Part shown: positions 1 through 57,879 of the stretch, in pieces
How the letters are laid out: the number at the start of each line of letters is the position of its first letter
How positions within the stretch are numbered: the first letter of the stretch is position 1
Assembly: GCA_017528825.1 (NCBI GenBank)
Contig: JAFXOI010000001.1
Span: forward strand, 124,001-188,000
Length of the DNA: 64,000 nucleotides
Reading direction: 5' to 3'
From: Elusimicrobiaceae bacterium
Lineage (GTDB): Bacteria; Elusimicrobiota; Elusimicrobia; Elusimicrobiales; Elusimicrobiaceae
The notes under the pieces: generated by a model
Database searches by the model: none
Seen by the model: only the letters and a program-made list of their open reading frames with translations
Told to the model about the DNA's origin: nothing
Made by a program: the position numbers and the translations under genes

Positions 1-218
1 CGCCCTCTAAAACAAACAGCCGTGGTTTGCCGTCACGATTGACGGCAAACACTCGGCACCACACTTCCAAGGGATCAGCTCGGACGTGTAGTGCCTAAAA
101 CGACTGTTTTTGGTGTGAATGGGCTGCCTTTCGACAGCGCCCCCTACGGGATTCCAAAAACAGATAAATTTAAGTAAGCCGGATTAGGGCTTTGTTAACT
201 CTTTTCTCCTGTTACTAC
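1..218 (-). ncRNA. Structured RNA copy A, 3' end cut by window edge
   Basis: Read on the minus strand this is one of three copies of a shared fold (others at 38397-38668 and 51380-51655). An extended -10 (TGG-TAATAT, 225-233) sets the 5' end near 218, and GGAG follows at about 206-209. Pairings seen: a small 5' hairpin (about 176-193); P1, 154-163 with 104-113; a GAAA-capped hairpin at 123-138; P4, 55-68 with 82-95, whose loop reads GAGCTGATCCC; P5, 25-34 with 41-50; and the first arm of a CGGCTGTT terminator stem at 16-22. The terminator and the gene behind it lie left of the window. Family and function are unknown; the strand is inferred from G-U wobbles and from the terminators of the other copies. 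Confidence 0.72.
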
Positions 219-37300: not shown

Positions 37301-38365
37301 TTACATATTTATGCCATACTGCGTACTTATATTTTGCACTTGTGCCTCTACTTCAGCACAACGAGCTGACGAACAACGATGTTCATTTGGACAGGATGCC
37401 CCACCGCAACAACATGCGTTATCATTATAACTCACACCTGCACAACCATATCTATAATAAGTAGATTCTCCTGCATAACATACAGAGCCATTCGTAAACG
37501 TGCTATCGCATCCTCCATAAAAACTTGTAGTGACACAAATTGCATTATCAAAAGTATTATTTGCACAAGAGCTCTCATTTTTTGTGATACATACGGCTCC
37601 GTTTGCAAAGGAAGAATTTGTACAACCCGCTTTTGCCATGTCCCAACATACTCCCCCATCTTTAAATGAGGAATTATTACAAGAATTATAAATATAACCT
37701 TTACATATACCTCCTTCATTTACCTCGACGTTACTAGATGCTCCATATCCACAAAACGGCGTAGAATTGCCATATATACCATTGGCTTGATAGGGCATAG
37801 CTAATGCTGAACATCTTTCTTGGTCGGTTCTATAACATGTTCCATTTTTTTGCGAAAAGGCACGGCCAACATGATCACAAGTGGCCTTGTCTATAGCTTG
37901 GTCTAAAAGATACGCGGTGTAGCCCTCGGCACTAGTTAAATCTTGGCCTATAAGTAGCTTTCCGCAAAGTTTTTCGGCCCGTTCATCGCCTGTCTTAGCC
38001 TCACAATGCAGTTGCCCGGCAAATATTGGACTGTCGTTAAGGTAACTAGCCAGTCTTACATTAGCAAGCTTACTATTCGTAACCCGTATCACGTTGGGAT
38101 CTGCGGTATTATTGGGCGTTACTAAGGCAAAGGTTAAATCAGTATTATTCATAGTAACATCTAAATTAGCCATATTATCTGTATAAGCACCATTAGTCAT
38201 TTTAATGGCTTCTTCAGCATCTTTAATGGCCTTAGCTCCGGGGAGCATTGTGCTCCAATGGCTTTTATCCACCGCGCCCTGATACATGGGGATTGCAATA
38301 GCTGATAAAATACCAATAATCAGTACGACAACTAGCAATTCTACTAACGTAAATGCTTTGTGCAT
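37301..38365 (-). CDS. Type IV pilin-like protein with cysteine-rich repeats (paralogue)
   Basis: 354 aa. Prepilin leader MHK, then A-FTLVELLVVVLIIGILSA. About 170 residues are near-identical in layout to 22630-23823 (AIPMYQGAVDKSHWSTMLPG). The C-terminus has repeats such as SSFKDGGVCWD, SSFANGAVCITK, NTFDNAICVT, STFTNGSVCYA, roughly every 15-18 residues, then a CCCGGASCP cluster. This looks like a disulphide-rich solenoid. It has AAGGAAA before the ATG and lies 30 bases after the terminator of structured RNA B. Confidence 0.87.
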   Translation of the reverse strand: MHKAFTLVELLVVVLIIGILSAIAIPMYQGAVDKSHWSTMLPGAKAIKDAEEAIKMTNGAYTDNMANLDVTMNNTDLTFALVTPNNTADPNVIRVTNSKLANVRLASYLNDSPIFAGQLHCEAKTGDERAEKLCGKLLIGQDLTSAEGYTAYLLDQAIDKATCDHVGRAFSQKNGTCYRTDQERCSALAMPYQANGIYGNSTPFCGYGASSNVEVNEGGICKGYIYNSCNNSSFKDGGVCWDMAKAGCTNSSFANGAVCITKNESSCANNTFDNAICVTTSFYGGCDSTFTNGSVCYAGESTYYRYGCAGVSYNDNACCCGGASCPNEHRCSSARCAEVEAQVQNISTQYGINM

Positions 38366-38396
38366 AAGATTTCCTTTAAAATATTGGCCTGGGCAA

Positions 38397-38668
38397 AAGA
38401 AAACGGCTATTATGCCCAAGCGCGAATCAGTCACCTAGTCATAACAGCCGTAGTTTGCCGCGCCCGAAGGCGTGGCAAACATTCGGTACAACACAACGGG
38501 ATTATAAGTTCCATTGCGTTGTACCTAAAACAGCTGCTTTTGGACTGATTCGTGGCCTTTGGTTTCCCAAAAGCTATCCGTATTCTGCATACGGTTCCAA
38601 AAACAGATTAAAATTTATTCATAAGCGCAGTTTCTTGCGCGTAACTATCTATCCTCCTATAAAGGGAT
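38397..38668 (-). ncRNA. Structured RNA copy B, upstream of pilin gene
   Basis: Minus-strand transcript. -10 TGC-TATAAT (38675-38683); AGGAGG near 38652-38658; 5' hairpin GCGCA/TGCGC; P1 38597-38606 with 38534-38543; P2 CCGTAT/ATACGG; P3 38556-38573 with GAAA loop; P4 38485-38525; P5 GTTTGCC/GGCAAAC (38453-38480); terminator stem 38404-38450 with T-rich tail. The terminator loop segment 38422-38431 pairs with 38544-38553 over 10 bp. It ends 30 bases before the pilin ATG, so it may be a leader with attenuator or a separate RNA. Confidence 0.78.
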
Positions 38669-38699
38669 GTTGGTATTATAGCAAATCCCTATACGATAT

Positions 38700-51298: not shown

Positions 51299-51379
51299 AA
51301 ATGATTTTTTTGGCCTACAAAACACAACCAAACATGGGAATTTATACGCATCTGGGTACAGGTTTGCTAAAATGGAAGT

Positions 51380-51655
51380 ATCACATTAAATTTGCAAAGG
51401 AGATAAAACAGAACAGCCCGAACTGGGCATAAACTTTTTTACTGTTTTTGGGATCCTGCTGGAAGAGTAGGATAGCTATTGGGAAACCAATATCTAAGCT
51501 CACCAAAACAGCCAATTTAAGCATAGACACTGAGAGCTGATCCCTTTCGGTGCTTATGCCGAAAATGCTTCTTGCCGTCTGCAAAGACGGCAAGGGGTTA
51601 CGGCTGTTTATATCCGGGGCTGAGCTTAGACCTGGACGTAATACAGCCGTTTTTA
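51380..51655 (+). ncRNA. Structured RNA copy C, upstream of restriction operon
   Basis: -10 TGC-TAAAAT at 51365-51373; GGAG 51399-51402 with no start codon behind it; 5' hairpin GCCC/GGGC (51416-51428); P1 51442-51451 with 51503-51511; P2 ATCCT/AGGAT (51453-51473); P3 TATTGG-GAAA-CCAATA (51477-51492); P4 51521-51533 with 51547-51559 and loop GAGCTGATCCCTT; P5 51571-51594; terminator 51601-51649 plus T5. The terminator loop 51621-51630 is an exact complement of 51493-51502. It ends 47 bases before the methylase ATG. Confidence 0.8.
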
Positions 51656-51701: not shown

Positions 51702-52358
51702 ATGACGGAACGAAAGGAACAACAAATCAAAAGCGAGAAACGCGTGGCCGACTTTGGCGAAGTGCTCACCGCACGCCGTGAAGTGGAAGCCATGCTGGAC
51801 CTGGTCAAAAATGAATCGGAACGCATAGACAGCCGCTTCTTGGAGCCCGCATGCGGCACGGGGAACTTCCTTACTGCCATATTGGAACGCAAGCTCAAAA
51901 CTTTACGGGCACGCTACCGCACTAAACGGGCCGACTTTGAAGCCCAACTGCTCTCCGCCTTAGGCAGCATCTACGGCATTGACTTATTAGAAGACAACGT
52001 CAAAGAATCCCGCCAACGCCTTTTTGATATGGCCGTACAGTGCTACAAAGATTCCCTGCGTAAGAAACCCGATGAAGCATTTCAAAACATCATCCGCTTT
52101 GTACTAAGTAAGAACATTCTGCAAGGTGATTCATTAAACGGAATAGACAAAATCACGTTCACCCAGTGGACACTGCTCGGCTACCGATTTAATAGGGAAG
52201 AGTACGCTTTCCAAGCATTAAACAATAAACCGGAAGACGGACTGGACTTGTTCGGCACGTCTTCCTTAAACGAAAAACAGCAACCCGTGTACATTCCGCA
52301 AGCTGTTAAACGTTACCCGCCTGTACATTACCGCAAATTATTGGAGGAAACTAAATGA
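51702..52358 (+). CDS. N6-adenine methylase, SAM-binding half
   Basis: 218 aa. RVADFGEVLTARREVEAMLDLV and FLEPACGTGNFLTAIL (motif I) are those of Eco57I/type I-like adenine methylases; YGIDLLEDN is the next SAM contact. The catalytic NPPY motif is absent, though the following gene has its own motif I and NPPY. Probably a subunit or a reduced methylase. ATG 51702 fits the family N-terminus (MTERKEQQ) better than the upstream TTG. Overlaps the next gene by four bases. Confidence 0.78.
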   Translation: MTERKEQQIKSEKRVADFGEVLTARREVEAMLDLVKNESERIDSRFLEPACGTGNFLTAILERKLKTLRARYRTKRADFEAQLLSALGSIYGIDLLEDNVKESRQRLFDMAVQCYKDSLRKKPDEAFQNIIRFVLSKNILQGDSLNGIDKITFTQWTLLGYRFNREEYAFQALNNKPEDGLDLFGTSSLNEKQQPVYIPQAVKRYPPVHYRKLLEETK

Positions 52359-53905
52359 CGTTCTTAAAAGAATTGCACAAGCCGGACATTTTGGACTGCA
52401 TTGCCCACTTGTCTTCCGACGAAGTATTCACACCACCCAAGCTGGTAAATGAAATGCTGGATATGCTTCCGCCCGAACTGTTCCGAAGTACGGAAACAAA
52501 GTTTTTGGATCCTGGTTGCAAATCCGGCGTGTTCCTGCGGGAAATTGCCAAACGCTTGATTGAAGGCGAAAAAGAACTCATTCCCGACCTGGAAAAGCGG
52601 ATCCGGCACATCTTTACAAACCAATTGTACGGGCTGGCTATTACGGAGCTGACAGGGCTTTTGGCACGGCGTTCCACTTACTGTTCCAAGAAAGCAGATG
52701 GGGAATACTCCATTTGTACATTTAGCACACCGGACGGCAACATTGACTATACTCGCACGGAACACGTCTGGGAAAACGGCAAATGCACCTTATGCGGGGC
52801 CAGCCAAAGCCAGTACGACCGTGGCGACATTTTAGAAACCCACGCATACAGTTTTATTCACTGCGACGAAGAACACAACAAAACAGTTTTCAAGAGGTTA
52901 AAAGATATGAAATTTGACGTAATTATCGGCAATCCGCCGTATCAACTAAGTGATGGTGGAGCACAAGCAAGTGCCAGCCCGATTTATCAGTTATTTGTAG
53001 AACAAGCCAAACGACTAAACCCGCGGTATCTAACCATGATTATACCTTCCCGCTGGATGACTGGGGGCAAAGGATTGGATGCTTTCCGAAGCACGATGAT
53101 TCATGATAAACATTTCAAAACATTACACGATTTTGCAGATTCAAATGAGTGTTTCAGAGGGGTAGATATTAAAGGTGGTGTGTGTTATTTCTTGTGGACA
53201 CGCGATTCTGAACAAAAGTGCGACATTTACCGACATGATATAAACGGTGTTAGCCATTCAAAACGCTACTTGGTAGAAGAAGGAGATGACATTTTTATCC
53301 GGTGTAATCAACTTATTCCCATCAAAGATAAAGTCCAAGCCAAACAAGAAGAAAGTTTTATGAGTTTGGTATCAGCCATGAAACCTTATGGACTACGCGG
53401 AGATGTATTTGAACACCCAATCAAATATGACTTGCCAAAAATGGGGTGCAGAAGAATTAAAGACGGATACGAAGTTGTGGGATTATGCCACCTAAGACGA
53501 GAATCACGTTTTATTCCGCCCGATTATCCCATCCCACAACGTAATATGCTCCATGATTATAAAATTTTTATGACACGCAATTATGGATGTGGCGAGATAG
53601 GAGAAGTACCAGCCACGCCAGTCCTGGCCACGCCAGGAATGTTATGCACCGAAACATTCATTCAGATTGGGCCCTTCAAAACCCAAAAGGAAATGGAGAA
53701 CTGTTTTAGTTATATTAAAACCAAATTCTTCCGTTGCATGGTAGGTATTAGAAAACAGGACCAAGGAGCTGGAAGGGCTGTTTATAAATATGTGCCAATG
53801 CAAGATTTTAGCGAACCGTGGACGGATGCCAAGTTATACAAAAAGTACGGACTGACGAAGGACGAAATCAACTTTATAGAGTCCATGATTAAGCCGATGG
53901 AATAG
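52355..53905 (+). CDS. Eco57I-type adenine-N6 DNA methylase
   Basis: 516 aa. Motif I LDPGCKSGVFLREIA, catalytic motif IV FDVIIGNPPYQLSDGG, with a Cys4-like insert between (YCSKKADGEYSIC; GKCTLCGAS) that may bind zinc. The C-terminal half is a specificity region. Translationally coupled to the gene before and ten bases from the helicase. Confidence 0.88.
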   Translation: MTFLKELHKPDILDCIAHLSSDEVFTPPKLVNEMLDMLPPELFRSTETKFLDPGCKSGVFLREIAKRLIEGEKELIPDLEKRIRHIFTNQLYGLAITELTGLLARRSTYCSKKADGEYSICTFSTPDGNIDYTRTEHVWENGKCTLCGASQSQYDRGDILETHAYSFIHCDEEHNKTVFKRLKDMKFDVIIGNPPYQLSDGGAQASASPIYQLFVEQAKRLNPRYLTMIIPSRWMTGGKGLDAFRSTMIHDKHFKTLHDFADSNECFRGVDIKGGVCYFLWTRDSEQKCDIYRHDINGVSHSKRYLVEEGDDIFIRCNQLIPIKDKVQAKQEESFMSLVSAMKPYGLRGDVFEHPIKYDLPKMGCRRIKDGYEVVGLCHLRRESRFIPPDYPIPQRNMLHDYKIFMTRNYGCGEIGEVPATPVLATPGMLCTETFIQIGPFKTQKEMENCFSYIKTKFFRCMVGIRKQDQGAGRAVYKYVPMQDFSEPWTDAKLYKKYGLTKDEINFIESMIKPME

Positions 53906-53914
53906 GAGAACCCC

Positions 53915-56440
53915 ATGCCCGAATTATTGAACAGCCACAAGATTCCACAAATATATGTCTATACGGAACCGCAATATAAGACCGCCGACTGGGAAGGCAA
54001 ACGCAATGGCCGTGGGTTCCTAAAAATTGGATTCACTACCGGCAATGTAGTGGACCGGATCCGACAACAATTCCCTACCCATAAACCCGTGGATAACCCC
54101 TTTGAAGTGCTATTGGAAGACGTTGCCATCCGCAAAGACGGCACGTTCTTTACTGATAAGGATGTGCACCGCATCCTGCGTAAAAACGGGGCAGAAGAAC
54201 GCACCACGCAAGGCAAGCATACAGAATGGTTTGAATGTACGTTGGAAGAGGTGGAACAGGCCATCTTTGCCGTTAAAAACCACAAAACCACTATCACCGA
54301 ACGCCGGATGGATTTTGCCATGCGGCCCGAACAAGCCCAAGCGGTCAAAGTTACTAGCGAATACTTCAAAAACTTTTCCTATGAGCGGGAACACAAAACA
54401 CCGCACTTCCTGTGGAACGCCAAAATGCGGTTTGGCAAAACATTTACCGCGTACCAATTAGCCAAAGAGATGGGCTGGAAAAAGGTGCTGGTGCTTACAT
54501 TTAAGCCAGCGGTGCAAAATTCGTGGGAATCGGATCTAGTCAGCCATGTGGATTTCAAGGACTGGCAATTCGTTTCCCGTACCGGAACACAATATAATGA
54601 AATAGATCCCAAGAAGCCGTTTGTGTGGTTTGCCAGCTTCCAAGACGTACTGCAAAAAACGGATGCGGGCGGTATTAAACCGCGTAATGAAGAGATTCAC
54701 TGTATAAACTGGGATTGCATTATACTGGACGAATACCACTTTGGGGCCTGGCGTGAAAACGCAAAGGATCTGTACGATGCCGAAGACAAAGCAGAACAGA
54801 AAAAACAAGACGGCGACGGCTTGGAATACTACGATGAAGAGCAGATGCCACTAACCACCAGTGCTTATTTGTACCTGTCCGGCACGCCGTTCCGTGCGTT
54901 AAACAACGGTGAGTTTTTAGAAGACCAAATCTTCAACTGGACTTATACCGACGAACAACGCGAGAAAAACAACTGGGATCCCAAACAAGGAGAAAACCCG
55001 TACTTGGAGCTTCCCCAAATGGTGATGATGACCTACCAAATGCCGGAAGAAATACGTTCCATTGCCTTGCTGGGTGAGTATAACGAATTTGACCTGAACG
55101 AGTTTTTCAAAGCAAAAGAAGAAGGTTCCGTGTGTAAATTTGTGCACGAAGCAGAAGTGGCCGACTGGCTAAATTTGATCCGTGGTCAATACAAACCCAC
55201 CACCTTAGATGAACTGAAAATCGGCAAGAAACCGCCGATGCCATATTCCGACGTGCGTTTGCTCAGTGCCCTAAGCCATACATTTTGGTTTTTGCCGTCC
55301 GTGGCCAGCTGCAAAGCAATGGGTACGTTACTAAGCAAGCATCCGGTTTATAAAGAATATAAGGTGATTGTCTGTGCCGGAAATGAAGCCGGAATGGGCG
55401 TGGATGCCCTGGAACCTGTCCGGCGTGCCATCGGCAAAGGGTTTGACACAAAAACGATCACGCTCTCCTGTGGGAAACTTACCACAGGTGTAACAGTGCC
55501 GGAATGGGGCGGGATTTTTATGCTGCGTAATACGTCCAGCCCAGAAACTTATTTTCAATCGGCCTTCCGTGTGCAATCTCCCTGGACGGTTAAAAATCCG
55601 GACGGAACGAACCCAAATGAAAAAGGTATTGTGAAAGATACCTGTTATGTGTTTGACTTCGCACCGGATCGGGCATTGAGCCAGATTGCCGAATACAGTG
55701 CACGCTTAAACGCAAACAGTAAGGAATCGCCGGAAAAGCGTGTGGAAGAGTTTATCAACTTCCTGCCCGTGCTCTGTTATGACGGCAGCACTATGGAACT
55801 AATCAACGCCAGCGAGCTGCTGGACTTGGTTATCTCCGGCACGGCATCTTCCATGCTGGCACGGCGTTGGCAAAGTGCCTTACTTGTAAATGTGGACAAC
55901 CCGACCTTGCTCAAACTGATGGAAAACGACAAGGCCATGGATGCTTTATCTCGCATTGAAGGGTTCCGTAATTTGAATAAGGACATCACAACGCTAGTGA
56001 ACAAGTCCGAAGCACTTAAAAAAGCTAAGCAAGAGAACAAAGAAGAACTTTCAAAGAAAGAAAAGAAGGAACTAACACAAGAAGAAAAAGAAATTAAATC
56101 CAAACGAAAAGAGATACAAGAAAAGCTACTCAAATTCGCAACTAGGATCCCCGTGTTTATGTATTTGACGGACTACCGCGAACAAACCTTGCAAGACGTA
56201 ATCACCCAGCTGGAACCGGAACTCTTCCAGAAGGTAACGGGCTTAACAATACCGGACTTTGAACTGCTGGTCAATATAGGCATCTTTAACGAGCAGATCA
56301 TGAACTCGGCCGTGTTTGCGTTCCGGCGTTATGAGGAAGCCAGCTTGTCCTATACTGGGCTGACCAAGCACCAAGAACTGCTGATTGGTGGTTTTAACAC
56401 AAAGATAGAGCGTACGGAATGGGAAAACATGGGGATGTAA
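53915..56440 (+). CDS. GIY-YIG nuclease fused to SF2 helicase
   Basis: 841 aa. N-terminal T5orf172/GIY-YIG-like domain (about 8-125: IYVYTEPQ, FLKIGFTTGNVVDRIRQQ, WFECTLEEVE). Helicase: Walker A in NAKMRFGKTFTAYQLA (about 167-182), DEYH box ILDEYHFGAW, later motifs SCGKLTTGVTVPEWGG and QSAFRVQSPW. This is the restriction part of the operon, cutting through the GIY-YIG domain after translocation. A Lys/Glu-rich stretch lies near 700-740. Confidence 0.85.
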   Translation: MPELLNSHKIPQIYVYTEPQYKTADWEGKRNGRGFLKIGFTTGNVVDRIRQQFPTHKPVDNPFEVLLEDVAIRKDGTFFTDKDVHRILRKNGAEERTTQGKHTEWFECTLEEVEQAIFAVKNHKTTITERRMDFAMRPEQAQAVKVTSEYFKNFSYEREHKTPHFLWNAKMRFGKTFTAYQLAKEMGWKKVLVLTFKPAVQNSWESDLVSHVDFKDWQFVSRTGTQYNEIDPKKPFVWFASFQDVLQKTDAGGIKPRNEEIHCINWDCIILDEYHFGAWRENAKDLYDAEDKAEQKKQDGDGLEYYDEEQMPLTTSAYLYLSGTPFRALNNGEFLEDQIFNWTYTDEQREKNNWDPKQGENPYLELPQMVMMTYQMPEEIRSIALLGEYNEFDLNEFFKAKEEGSVCKFVHEAEVADWLNLIRGQYKPTTLDELKIGKKPPMPYSDVRLLSALSHTFWFLPSVASCKAMGTLLSKHPVYKEYKVIVCAGNEAGMGVDALEPVRRAIGKGFDTKTITLSCGKLTTGVTVPEWGGIFMLRNTSSPETYFQSAFRVQSPWTVKNPDGTNPNEKGIVKDTCYVFDFAPDRALSQIAEYSARLNANSKESPEKRVEEFINFLPVLCYDGSTMELINASELLDLVISGTASSMLARRWQSALLVNVDNPTLLKLMENDKAMDALSRIEGFRNLNKDITTLVNKSEALKKAKQENKEELSKKEKKELTQEEKEIKSKRKEIQEKLLKFATRIPVFMYLTDYREQTLQDVITQLEPELFQKVTGLTIPDFELLVNIGIFNEQIMNSAVFAFRRYEEASLSYTGLTKHQELLIGGFNTKIERTEWENMGM

Positions 56441-56463
56441 AACACGCCTATTCTTTCGCGATT

Positions 56464-56496
56464 AGCCACCAAACACATACCTGTTTGGTGGCTTTT
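56464..56496 (+). terminator. Terminator of restriction operon
   Basis: AGCCACCAAACA/TGTTTGGTGGCT, 12 bp, followed by T5. Confidence 0.9.
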
Positions 56497-56503
56497 TACT
56501 TAA

Positions 56504-56588
56504 ATAAACAGAAAATACGTTTATATTGACTTTTTATTTGCTTTTATGCTATGCTATTAGTACAAAGATAAACAGAAAATATGTTTAT
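56504..56588 (+). promoter_or_regulatory. Promoter flanked by twin palindromic operators
   Basis: Two 21-base sites differ at one base (56504-56524 and 56568-56588) and are each inverted repeats ATAAAC...GTTTAT. Between them lie TTGACT (56526-56531) and TATGCT (56550-56555), 18 bases apart. One site touches the -35, the other covers the start region, as in repressor loops. Ribosome site GGAGG at 56595-56599. Confidence 0.7.
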
Positions 56589-56604
56589 TTAACGGAGGAG
56601 CTAA

Positions 56605-57879
56605 ATGTTTAAGTCATTTAAGGTTGTGAATTTCAAATCAATTTTGGAAACAACAGTGCCGCTAACCTATATGGAAAAGAAGGCACCCAATGGCTATAAA
56701 GAAAAAGAAACGATTCCCTTTTTAGAAGCTGGAAGAGATAGAGTCGTACCGCTTTTGATGCTTTTCGGCGCAAACGCTTCGGGTAAAACAAACCTTGTTG
56801 CTGCGTTTTCTTGTTATCTTCATATATTGCGGGAAGGTATCAAAGGAAAATTTATTCCAAACAAACTAAACAAAAAATACAATACTACTACCTTTGAGTT
56901 GAATTTTATCTGGAAGGGAGCGGAGTACACACACTTTATTGAGTACGATCAAACACACATTATTAAAGAAAAATTTACCCGCCAAAAGAAGGTGCTGTTT
57001 GAAATACAAGGCCATAAATTCGTAACACAAACCATTGAAACAAAAGGATACGGGCTAACGGAATTTAACAATATTCTTTCCGTGGAATGTTCAGAAGGAG
57101 ATATGCAAATCCACTCTTTCTTAACCAAACTAACCGGACGACTTCCAGGTCTTGATCAAAACATCTCTGGGGCATGTCAATACTTGATTATAGATACGCG
57201 AGTAATTACTCTTGGAAATACATTGCATCCTTCCATGATATTTGATGCGTTCAAAGGTTTGGGTATATCTTTTGACGAGGCCTTTGCCGAAATAACCCAC
57301 ATTCTCCAACTTCTGGATCTGACAATCACACGTTTAGAGCTGATTCAAGAAGAAAAAACGATTCCGTTTTTGCCACCAGTAACGGTAGCTCCCGCATCGT
57401 TTTATGTTGAAAAAGAATCGCACCAACTCAAACAGCGGTTAGATCGTATCATTTCGTTCCACAAGGACATTGAAGGAAAAGAAATCCCTTTTGAGTTTTT
57501 CCAAGAAGAATCGCAGGGAACAATCCGCTTATTTTCTATTATCGGCACCTTTATTTTAGCCATCAAAAGAGGCGGCGTCCTTATTTGGGATGAATTGGAT
57601 GCTTCGTTGCACCCTTGTTTGTTAAAAGAATTATTACAGATGTTCAAATCCAAACGGTATAATACAATGAATGCCCAACTAATTACATCTTTACATGATC
57701 CCTACATATTGGAAGATGAAAATGTGCGGGTATCTGATATTGCGGTTATTAACAACACTGTTTCCAAAGGCACTACTCTCACCCGTGTTGTTGATTTTGA
57801 CAATGCCAGAAACGATGTCAATTTTCGTAAGCAATACTTAGAAGGGCATTACAGAGGGATTCCAAACGCTTACTTATGA
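56605..57879 (+). CDS. AAA ATPase of abortive-infection type (AbiL/RloA-like)
   Basis: 424 aa. FKSFKVVNFKSI start, Walker A FGANASGKTNLV (about 54-65), ABC-like signature region, Walker B GGVLIWDELDASLHP (about 322-336) and a switch histidine in SLHDPYIL. This is the AAA_15/AAA_21 class found in phage-defence pairs. Overlaps its partner by ATGA. Confidence 0.83.
   Translation: MFKSFKVVNFKSILETTVPLTYMEKKAPNGYKEKETIPFLEAGRDRVVPLLMLFGANASGKTNLVAAFSCYLHILREGIKGKFIPNKLNKKYNTTTFELNFIWKGAEYTHFIEYDQTHIIKEKFTRQKKVLFEIQGHKFVTQTIETKGYGLTEFNNILSVECSEGDMQIHSFLTKLTGRLPGLDQNISGACQYLIIDTRVITLGNTLHPSMIFDAFKGLGISFDEAFAEITHILQLLDLTITRLELIQEEKTIPFLPPVTVAPASFYVEKESHQLKQRLDRIISFHKDIEGKEIPFEFFQEESQGTIRLFSIIGTFILAIKRGGVLIWDELDASLHPCLLKELLQMFKSKRYNTMNAQLITSLHDPYILEDENVRVSDIAVINNTVSKGTTLTRVVDFDNARNDVNFRKQYLEGHYRGIPNAYL

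Follow-up and report, generated by a model that had tools for sequence, protein, structure and literature searches.

Leaders of pilin and other surface genes in Elusimicrobiota are probably an undescribed class of transcription attenuators that dimerize. In the reading that we favor, with a probability of about 60% judged from sequence comparison and predicted folding, the leader would be a strand-exchange attenuator in which a hypervariable pair of segments, the barcode, strengthens or seeds the antiterminator, and in which leaders kiss one another through hairpin P4. Attenuation, strand exchange and kissing loops are already known parts. The RNA class itself is undescribed, as far as could be checked, and so is the way in which it combines a helix kept only as a pairing with a loop kept only as a palindrome, in dozens of copies before pilin and contingency-type genes.

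Leader copies in the window and in related genomes

Copies A, B and C of the leader lie in the window, the whole stretch of 64,000 nt that was analyzed. Copy C (51442..51653, plus strand; covariance model R1, 137.8 bits, E 5e-39) starts with the P1 5′ strand CTGTTTTTGG (51442..51451), which pairs with 51503-51511, followed by hairpins P2 (51453..51473, placed by the covariance model) and P3 (51477..51492). Barcode strand a, PKa, TCTAAGCTCA (51493..51502), comes next, and then the P1′ strand CCAAAACAG (51503..51511), which with the following nucleotide is also the 5′ side of the antiterminator; its two partners, the P1 5′ strand and the terminator 5′ strand, are mutually exclusive. Further downstream are hairpin P4 (51521..51559) with the palindrome GATC in its apical loop (51539-51542), hairpin P5 (51566..51597, likewise from the covariance model), the terminator 5′ strand (T5, 51600..51615), barcode strand b, PKb, TGAGCTTAGA (51621..51630), in the terminator loop, and the terminator 3′ strand with its U-tract (51635..51654), all on the plus strand.

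Behind copy C lies a putative controlled restriction-modification operon (51702..56440, plus), assigned by Pfam matches (Eco57I 8e-38, T5orf172 3e-10, ResIII 9e-7); its products are an MmeI/Eco57I-type N6 methylase and a GIY-YIG/ResIII protein, and the first ORF matches MmeI_Mtase just under the cut-off. The cluster at 51702-57879, comprising a split Eco57I/MmeI-type methylase, a GIY-YIG (T5orf172) and ResIII protein and then a gene for an AAA_21 (AbiEii-like) ATPase, is a possible defense island.

Copy B (38400..38606, minus; R1 212.1 bits, E 7e-61) precedes a putative controlled gene for a type IV pilin-like protein (37301..38365, minus; Pfam N_methyl PF07963, 9e-6). Its P4 hairpin (38485..38525, minus) has the palindromic loop TTATAA at 38502-38507. 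The terminator 5′ strand ACGGCTGTTATG (38440..38451, minus) pairs with the 3′ strand (38403..38414, minus), and its first 9 nt can alternatively pair with AGCAGCTGT of P1′. Copy A (1..163, minus) is cut by the window edge and complete in the contig (R1 100 bits truncated, 132 complete); it precedes a DUF4422/glycosyltransferase-8 gene outside the window.

A promoter-like extended −10 sequence, TTTGCTAAAATGG (51363..51375, plus), stands upstream of copy C, and the motif recurs at the equivalent place in copy B (TTTGCTATAATACC, 38672..38685, minus). Both assignments are weak because the strict motif is found in 33 of 219 copies only (2 in shuffled sequences), a minority on which a conserved promoter was rejected. 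Several copies apparently have a short hairpin, P0, of 4-5 bp and variable sequence ~15-35 nt upstream of P1 (38625-38640 in copy B).

The first relatives in the same genome and genus were found by exact-core searches, and R1 was built from seven relatives at that level. The covariance model detects ~48 copies in this 1.5-Mb genome (G000). Genus-wide, R1 finds copies in 61 of 66 genomes (species), with 1 to at least 36 in each genome that has any, so that copy number ranges from 0 to ~48. A second covariance model, R2, extends the range beyond the genus, with matches in a second genus (g8), in single members elsewhere in the order and in another Elusimicrobiota family (f15). The named records with copies are Elusimicrobiota MAGs, many of them from rumen or gut samples, and include the UBA1436 assembly. 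Eight pattern matches in viral contigs and nine in other phyla scored at most 20.5 bits with the model; given these low scores, and since such matches arise from the palindromic pattern, they were judged chance and a viral origin was rejected.

The leader is ~210 nt long, in a cis-acting 5′ position and on the strand of its gene, and nearly all copies carry an intrinsic terminator (stem plus U-tract) ahead of the start codon, as an attenuator should. In one case (L225) two divergent copies stand in tandem (1501-1686 and 1268-1442) before an EcoRI-type methylase gene.

A helix conserved only as a pairing

The preliminary description had proposed that in copy C the ten bases after P3 pair with the terminator loop, and 51493-51502 and 51621-51630 are indeed perfect complements, exactly as claimed. 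The pairing proposed at the same places in copy B was right in substance, but its register was off by one: in the register given (38553-38544 with 38431-38422) the supposed wobble is an A·C mismatch. In the corrected register strand a, CGAATCAGTC (38543..38552, minus), forms a perfect 10-bp helix with strand b, GACTGATTCG (38423..38432, minus), in the terminator loop. In copy A the barcode pairs over 8 bp (CCATTCAC/GTGAATGG).

We then compared 225 distinct full copies. In 216 of them (96%) the post-P3 segment forms an uninterrupted helix of 8 bp or more with the terminator loop, compared with 6.4% when partners were swapped among copies, and the mean helix length is 9.7 bp compared with 5.2 bp after swapping. 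The barcode pairing is not due to chance. It is formed by 186 different strand sequences; at positions 2-9 Watson-Crick pairs make up 94-100%, each position using several or all four pair types, and all four occur at positions 2-8. With the register fixed by the flanks, G·U pairs make up 1.7% of the barcode, against 3% in P2, 6% in P1 (which is 93% Watson-Crick over the copies) and 7-18% in other helices. The suggestion that different sequences keep the same pairing is thus supported far beyond the two copies from which it was drawn, and the homologues, which might have lacked complementarity, keep it in the same 216 of 225 cases. The preliminary description had also spoken of a GAAA hairpin. 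This holds for P3 of copy C but not for the class, where the P3 loops are GAAA, GATA, AGAA, TTAG and others, a variability on which a GAAA-receptor tertiary contact was rejected.

Nine copies lack a barcode of 8 bp or more. Several of these come from fragmented assemblies or look chimeric, and some carry strands that match other barcodes. L023, for instance, combines a CATTCTGAGT strand with the partner for CATTTTCCCT near a contig end, which points to recombination or misassembly.

Two leaders of an HSDR_N gene in different genera (L120:1888-2094, minus, and L203:6081-6287, plus) are near-identical in the body and in most of the flanks, as is the gene behind them. Their barcodes nevertheless differ at 6 of 10 positions, each change in one strand being compensated in the other, with the bases between the strands almost unchanged. 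This difference represents a wholesale barcode replacement. L203 in turn has the same barcode as L093, which precedes a different gene, and barcodes are also identical between some RNAs that have no more than average similarity in the body.

One case of recent transfer between genera, together with the high and variable copy number and the fact that the barcode strands are inverted repeats, could be taken as the mark of a mobile repeat or of an invertible DNA switch with the barcode strands as its arms. We regard this as very improbable: the copies typically precede a gene of like orientation by 30-90 nt, their upstream flanks are unrelated, terminal repeats were not seen, and no inverted allele was found in the 66 genomes and no credible match in viral contigs. 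Three pattern matches to an inversion between the barcode strands in these genomes proved to be P3 variants or reverse-strand matches, and this candidate was rejected.

Two mutually exclusive pairings of P1′

Covariation supports the earlier proposal of a long-range pairing through which termination can be tied to the folded body. That this pairing is only a pseudoknot on the finished terminator was not supported; the barcode sequence is equally compatible with such a pseudoknot and with a nested antiterminator. Directly 3′ of barcode strand a, AACAGYCGT (P1′ plus 4 nt) is complementary to the terminator 5′ strand ACGGCTGTT. In L086 and L087 P1 starts with TTA and P1′ has TAA or TGG at its end, with accompanying changes in the terminator 5′ strand; in divergent copies the joint change of P1, P1′ and terminator from CTG/CAG to TTA/TAA keeps the antiterminator complementarity, and in the CAGCTCGT variants a bulge restores it. 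Independent covariation of the antiterminator comes from this minority of divergent copies only, because the sequence of its 8-9-bp core also serves P1 and the terminator.

Since P1′-TCGT is complementary to the terminator 5′ strand and adjoins the barcode, the barcode would be nested in the antiterminator before the terminator 3′ strand (T3) exists. Using nearest-neighbor energies, which leave out pseudoknots, kinetics and tertiary contacts, we folded transcripts ending after the loop barcode, and antiterminator plus barcode were predicted in 212 of 216 copies. The mean predicted energy of these 216 pre-T3 transcripts was −76.5 kcal/mol for the antiterminator versus −62.5 kcal/mol for the P1 state. 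In full transcripts the terminator was predicted in 200 and P1 in 199 of the 216. Complementarity and the predicted folding of pre-T3 transcripts agree on a mutually exclusive antiterminator and show, at this level, that almost every copy retains both base-pairing states. The barcode may lengthen the nested antiterminator and may also form a pseudoknot in the terminated state; a 10-bp helix in a closed loop of ~13 nt would be sterically tight, so that full pairing should be favored with the terminator open.

A static pseudoknot would explain part of these observations. In this case the barcode would pair with the loop of the completed terminator, stabilizing or straining it and linking it to the P1-P3 body, without a functional antiterminator. 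The near-universal barcode complementarity fits this, as does the covariation between the upstream strand and the terminator loop (216/225, four pair types at most positions), and in the minimum free energy structure of the full transcript, P1 plus terminator, both barcode strands are unpaired and free to pair. Two observations are left out of account, however: P1′-TCGT is conserved as a complement of the terminator 5′ strand, and before T3 the nested form is predicted to be favored (−14 kcal/mol). In addition, 10 bp in a closed loop of ~13 nt would be strained. We consider it unlikely, and the least likely of the RNA-based alternatives.

In the strand-exchange attenuator that we favor, the leader would decide whether transcription enters the gene behind it. 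In the OFF state P1 (its 5′ strand with P1′) would close the P2/P3 junction and free the terminator 5′ strand, leading to the terminator. In the ON state P1′ and the 4 nt 3′ of it would pair with the terminator 5′ strand, and the adjoining 10-nt barcode with the terminator loop, so that a single long antiterminator would surround P4 and P5. As the RNA is transcribed, TCGT and the barcode strands, which the P1 state leaves unpaired, could serve as toeholds for displacement of the P1 5′ strand by the terminator 5′ strand. Stabilization of P1 would then favor termination and its opening would favor read-through. The barcode would be free to vary because it must match only its own partner; P1, antiterminator and terminator share one frozen sequence.

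Two motifs were noted 3′ of the terminator. A P1′-like repeat, CCAAARRCAG, occurs within 60 nt of it in 27 of 223 copies, compared with 0.2 in shuffled sequences (for example L041, L043 and L059), and could base-pair with the P1 5′ strand once the ON state has released it. Fewer copies have GAGCC[CA]GA downstream, complementary to GGCTC of the terminator.

Expression platforms in which P1, antiterminator and terminator exchange strands are known from riboswitches (review PMC10907184; ZMP riboswitch, PMC7337938). As in these riboswitch and attenuator platforms, the P1 3′ strand of the leader pairs alternatively with the terminator 5′ strand, and the decision would be made co-transcriptionally. 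Unlike them, the leader has no conserved binding pocket, its antiterminator runs into a hypervariable barcode reaching the terminator loop, and it occurs in dozens of copies per genome with a palindromic P4 loop. T-box leaders are likewise long and structured and use a specific RNA pairing in the choice between terminator and antiterminator; the partner there is a tRNA, whereas here it lies in cis or in another leader, and the leader has neither a T-box motif nor a T-box match in Rfam.

The three-way junction followed by an expression platform is also the usual layout of a metabolite riboswitch, with P1/P2/P3 as a small-ligand aptamer and the antiterminator as the platform. Cyclic di-GMP would be the obvious guess for pilin genes: class I and II c-di-GMP riboswitches control type IV pili elsewhere and are, like the present leader, terminator-bearing leader RNAs before type IV pilin genes (PMC6366702), and genes for GGDEF proteins (c-di-GMP enzymes) are present in all 66 genomes of the genus. 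However, one A in J1/2 is nearly the only conserved unpaired position of the P1-P3 junction, and the P2 loop, P3 loop and J2/3 vary freely, which disfavors a classic aptamer. The architecture also differs from that of the c-di-GMP riboswitches. With Rfam 15 at the gathering score, two tRNAs were the only matches in the window; at E up to 1 no family, c-di-GMP-I/II and T-box included, and thus no riboswitch model matched the element. In the open-access literature searched on Elusimicrobiota riboswitches, pilins and prepilins no account of it was found. A metabolite riboswitch seems doubtful to us.

Self-complementary P4 loops and the genes behind the leader

The length of P4 hardly varies (147 copies have 41 nt), and in 193 of 203 copies (95%) the apical loop is palindromic. 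About 19 palindromes are used, including TAATTA, GATC, TTATAA, TCATGA, TTCGAA, AGCT and TTGCAA. Among 44 distinct P4 loops, 25 contain a palindrome of at least 6 nt, compared with 2.5 in shuffles, and 39 one of at least 4 nt, compared with 14.8. The 6-nt palindromes use all four pair types at each level, so that self-complementarity of the loop is maintained by compensatory changes. The loops of P2, P3 and P5, taken as controls, have no excess of palindromes over shuffles. The commonest layouts of the P4 loop are 2+6+1 and 2+4+1, and 6 of the 10 non-palindromic exceptions are GACG tetraloops. These comparisons show selection of the P4 loop for self-complementarity, as far as sequences can.

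Two loop motifs are described for retroviral kissing dimers, 6-nt palindromes and GACG: the HIV-1 DIS has the former in an apical loop, and MoMuLV/MoMuSV have the latter (PMC7357161). The leader resembles the retroviral DIS in that the core of a hairpin loop is conserved only as self-complementary, and both loop types are present. It differs in that these are bacterial mRNA leaders with ~19 palindromes, the flanks are not the purines of the HIV DIS, and the dimers are predicted. A partner for the P4 palindrome elsewhere in the same leader was found in 3 of 131 cases, equal to the control, and since the leader holds no second copy of the palindrome the natural partner would be another molecule. 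We infer that leader RNAs dimerize through P4. Many of the palindromes are all A-U and would kiss weakly. If two leader RNAs kiss through P4, a nascent leader could be influenced by other leader transcripts, and differing barcodes would confine the long pairing to the partner within the same RNA or to a copy transcribed from the same gene. Contact between leaders via the P4 loop is a serious candidate for the input of the switch.

In this genome 40 of 46 copies stand ahead of a pilin-like gene, and over all copies ~131 of 215 (60%) do so. The start codon follows on the same strand at a median of 39 nt after the element. The 1.53-Mb genome holds 113 prepilin-type (N_methyl) genes, of which ~40 (~35%) carry the leader. 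Other targets encode lipoproteins, other exported proteins, glycosyltransferases, pyruvyl transferases, a sulfatase-fold membrane protein and restriction-modification proteins, the last comprising the Eco57I-type operon behind copy C, EcoRI-type methylases and HSDR_N proteins. By analogy, this list resembles phase-variable contingency loci. Between terminator and start codon, a predicted hairpin often covers the ribosome-binding site or AUG, as it does in many pilin leaders (median z −2.6, n=113; 38364-38399, minus, in copy B), which suggests a second, translational layer of control.

These targets bear on a further possibility, an RNA memory private to each gene. A terminated leader would act in trans on the nascent leader of its own gene through the P4 kiss and the barcode, blocking (or seeding) the antiterminator, so that each pilin, glycan or restriction gene would be independently bistable. 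The self-complementary P4 loops, the rarity of G·U pairs in the barcode (1.7% compared with 6-18% in most helices) and the resemblance of the targets to contingency loci are all consistent with this. In addition, within genomes no identical barcodes occur among 1654 pairs of complete copies, compared with 5.2 expected from equally similar pairs between genomes, although the test is confounded, since assembly breaks or collapses copies that are identical. In the present genome the contigs C15 and C16 (starts; L079 and L080) share 141 nt of leader, including one barcode, and differ in upstream sequence. Such shared ends indicate that the leader repeats break assemblies, and the shared barcode itself speaks against privacy. 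The count is suggestive of strict privacy of barcodes within a genome, which in view of the shared ends we do not claim; the memory is a tentative idea that we hold to be improbable. Equally speculative is the view that each pilin, surface or restriction gene has its own RNA address, with the P4 kiss and self-recognition by a private barcode setting the terminator.

With the leader an undescribed class of structured RNA, reaching ~48 copies in a 1.5-Mb genome, is added to a phylum in which no such leader is reported by the open literature that was searched. A helix whose pairing alone is conserved (186 sequences), together with a loop of which only the palindromic character is kept, would suit the study of RNA self-recognition, and the leader would be a natural system for toehold strand displacement and possibly for RNA dimerization in gene control; functional RNA oligomers are rarely observed in nature, according to a 2020 review (PMC7357161). 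For a small gut bacterium with 113 prepilin genes, it suggests a testable way in which the genes to be expressed might be chosen. If RNA addresses are indeed read, they would provide dozens of independent, protein-free switches, amounting to epigenetic phase variation by RNA.
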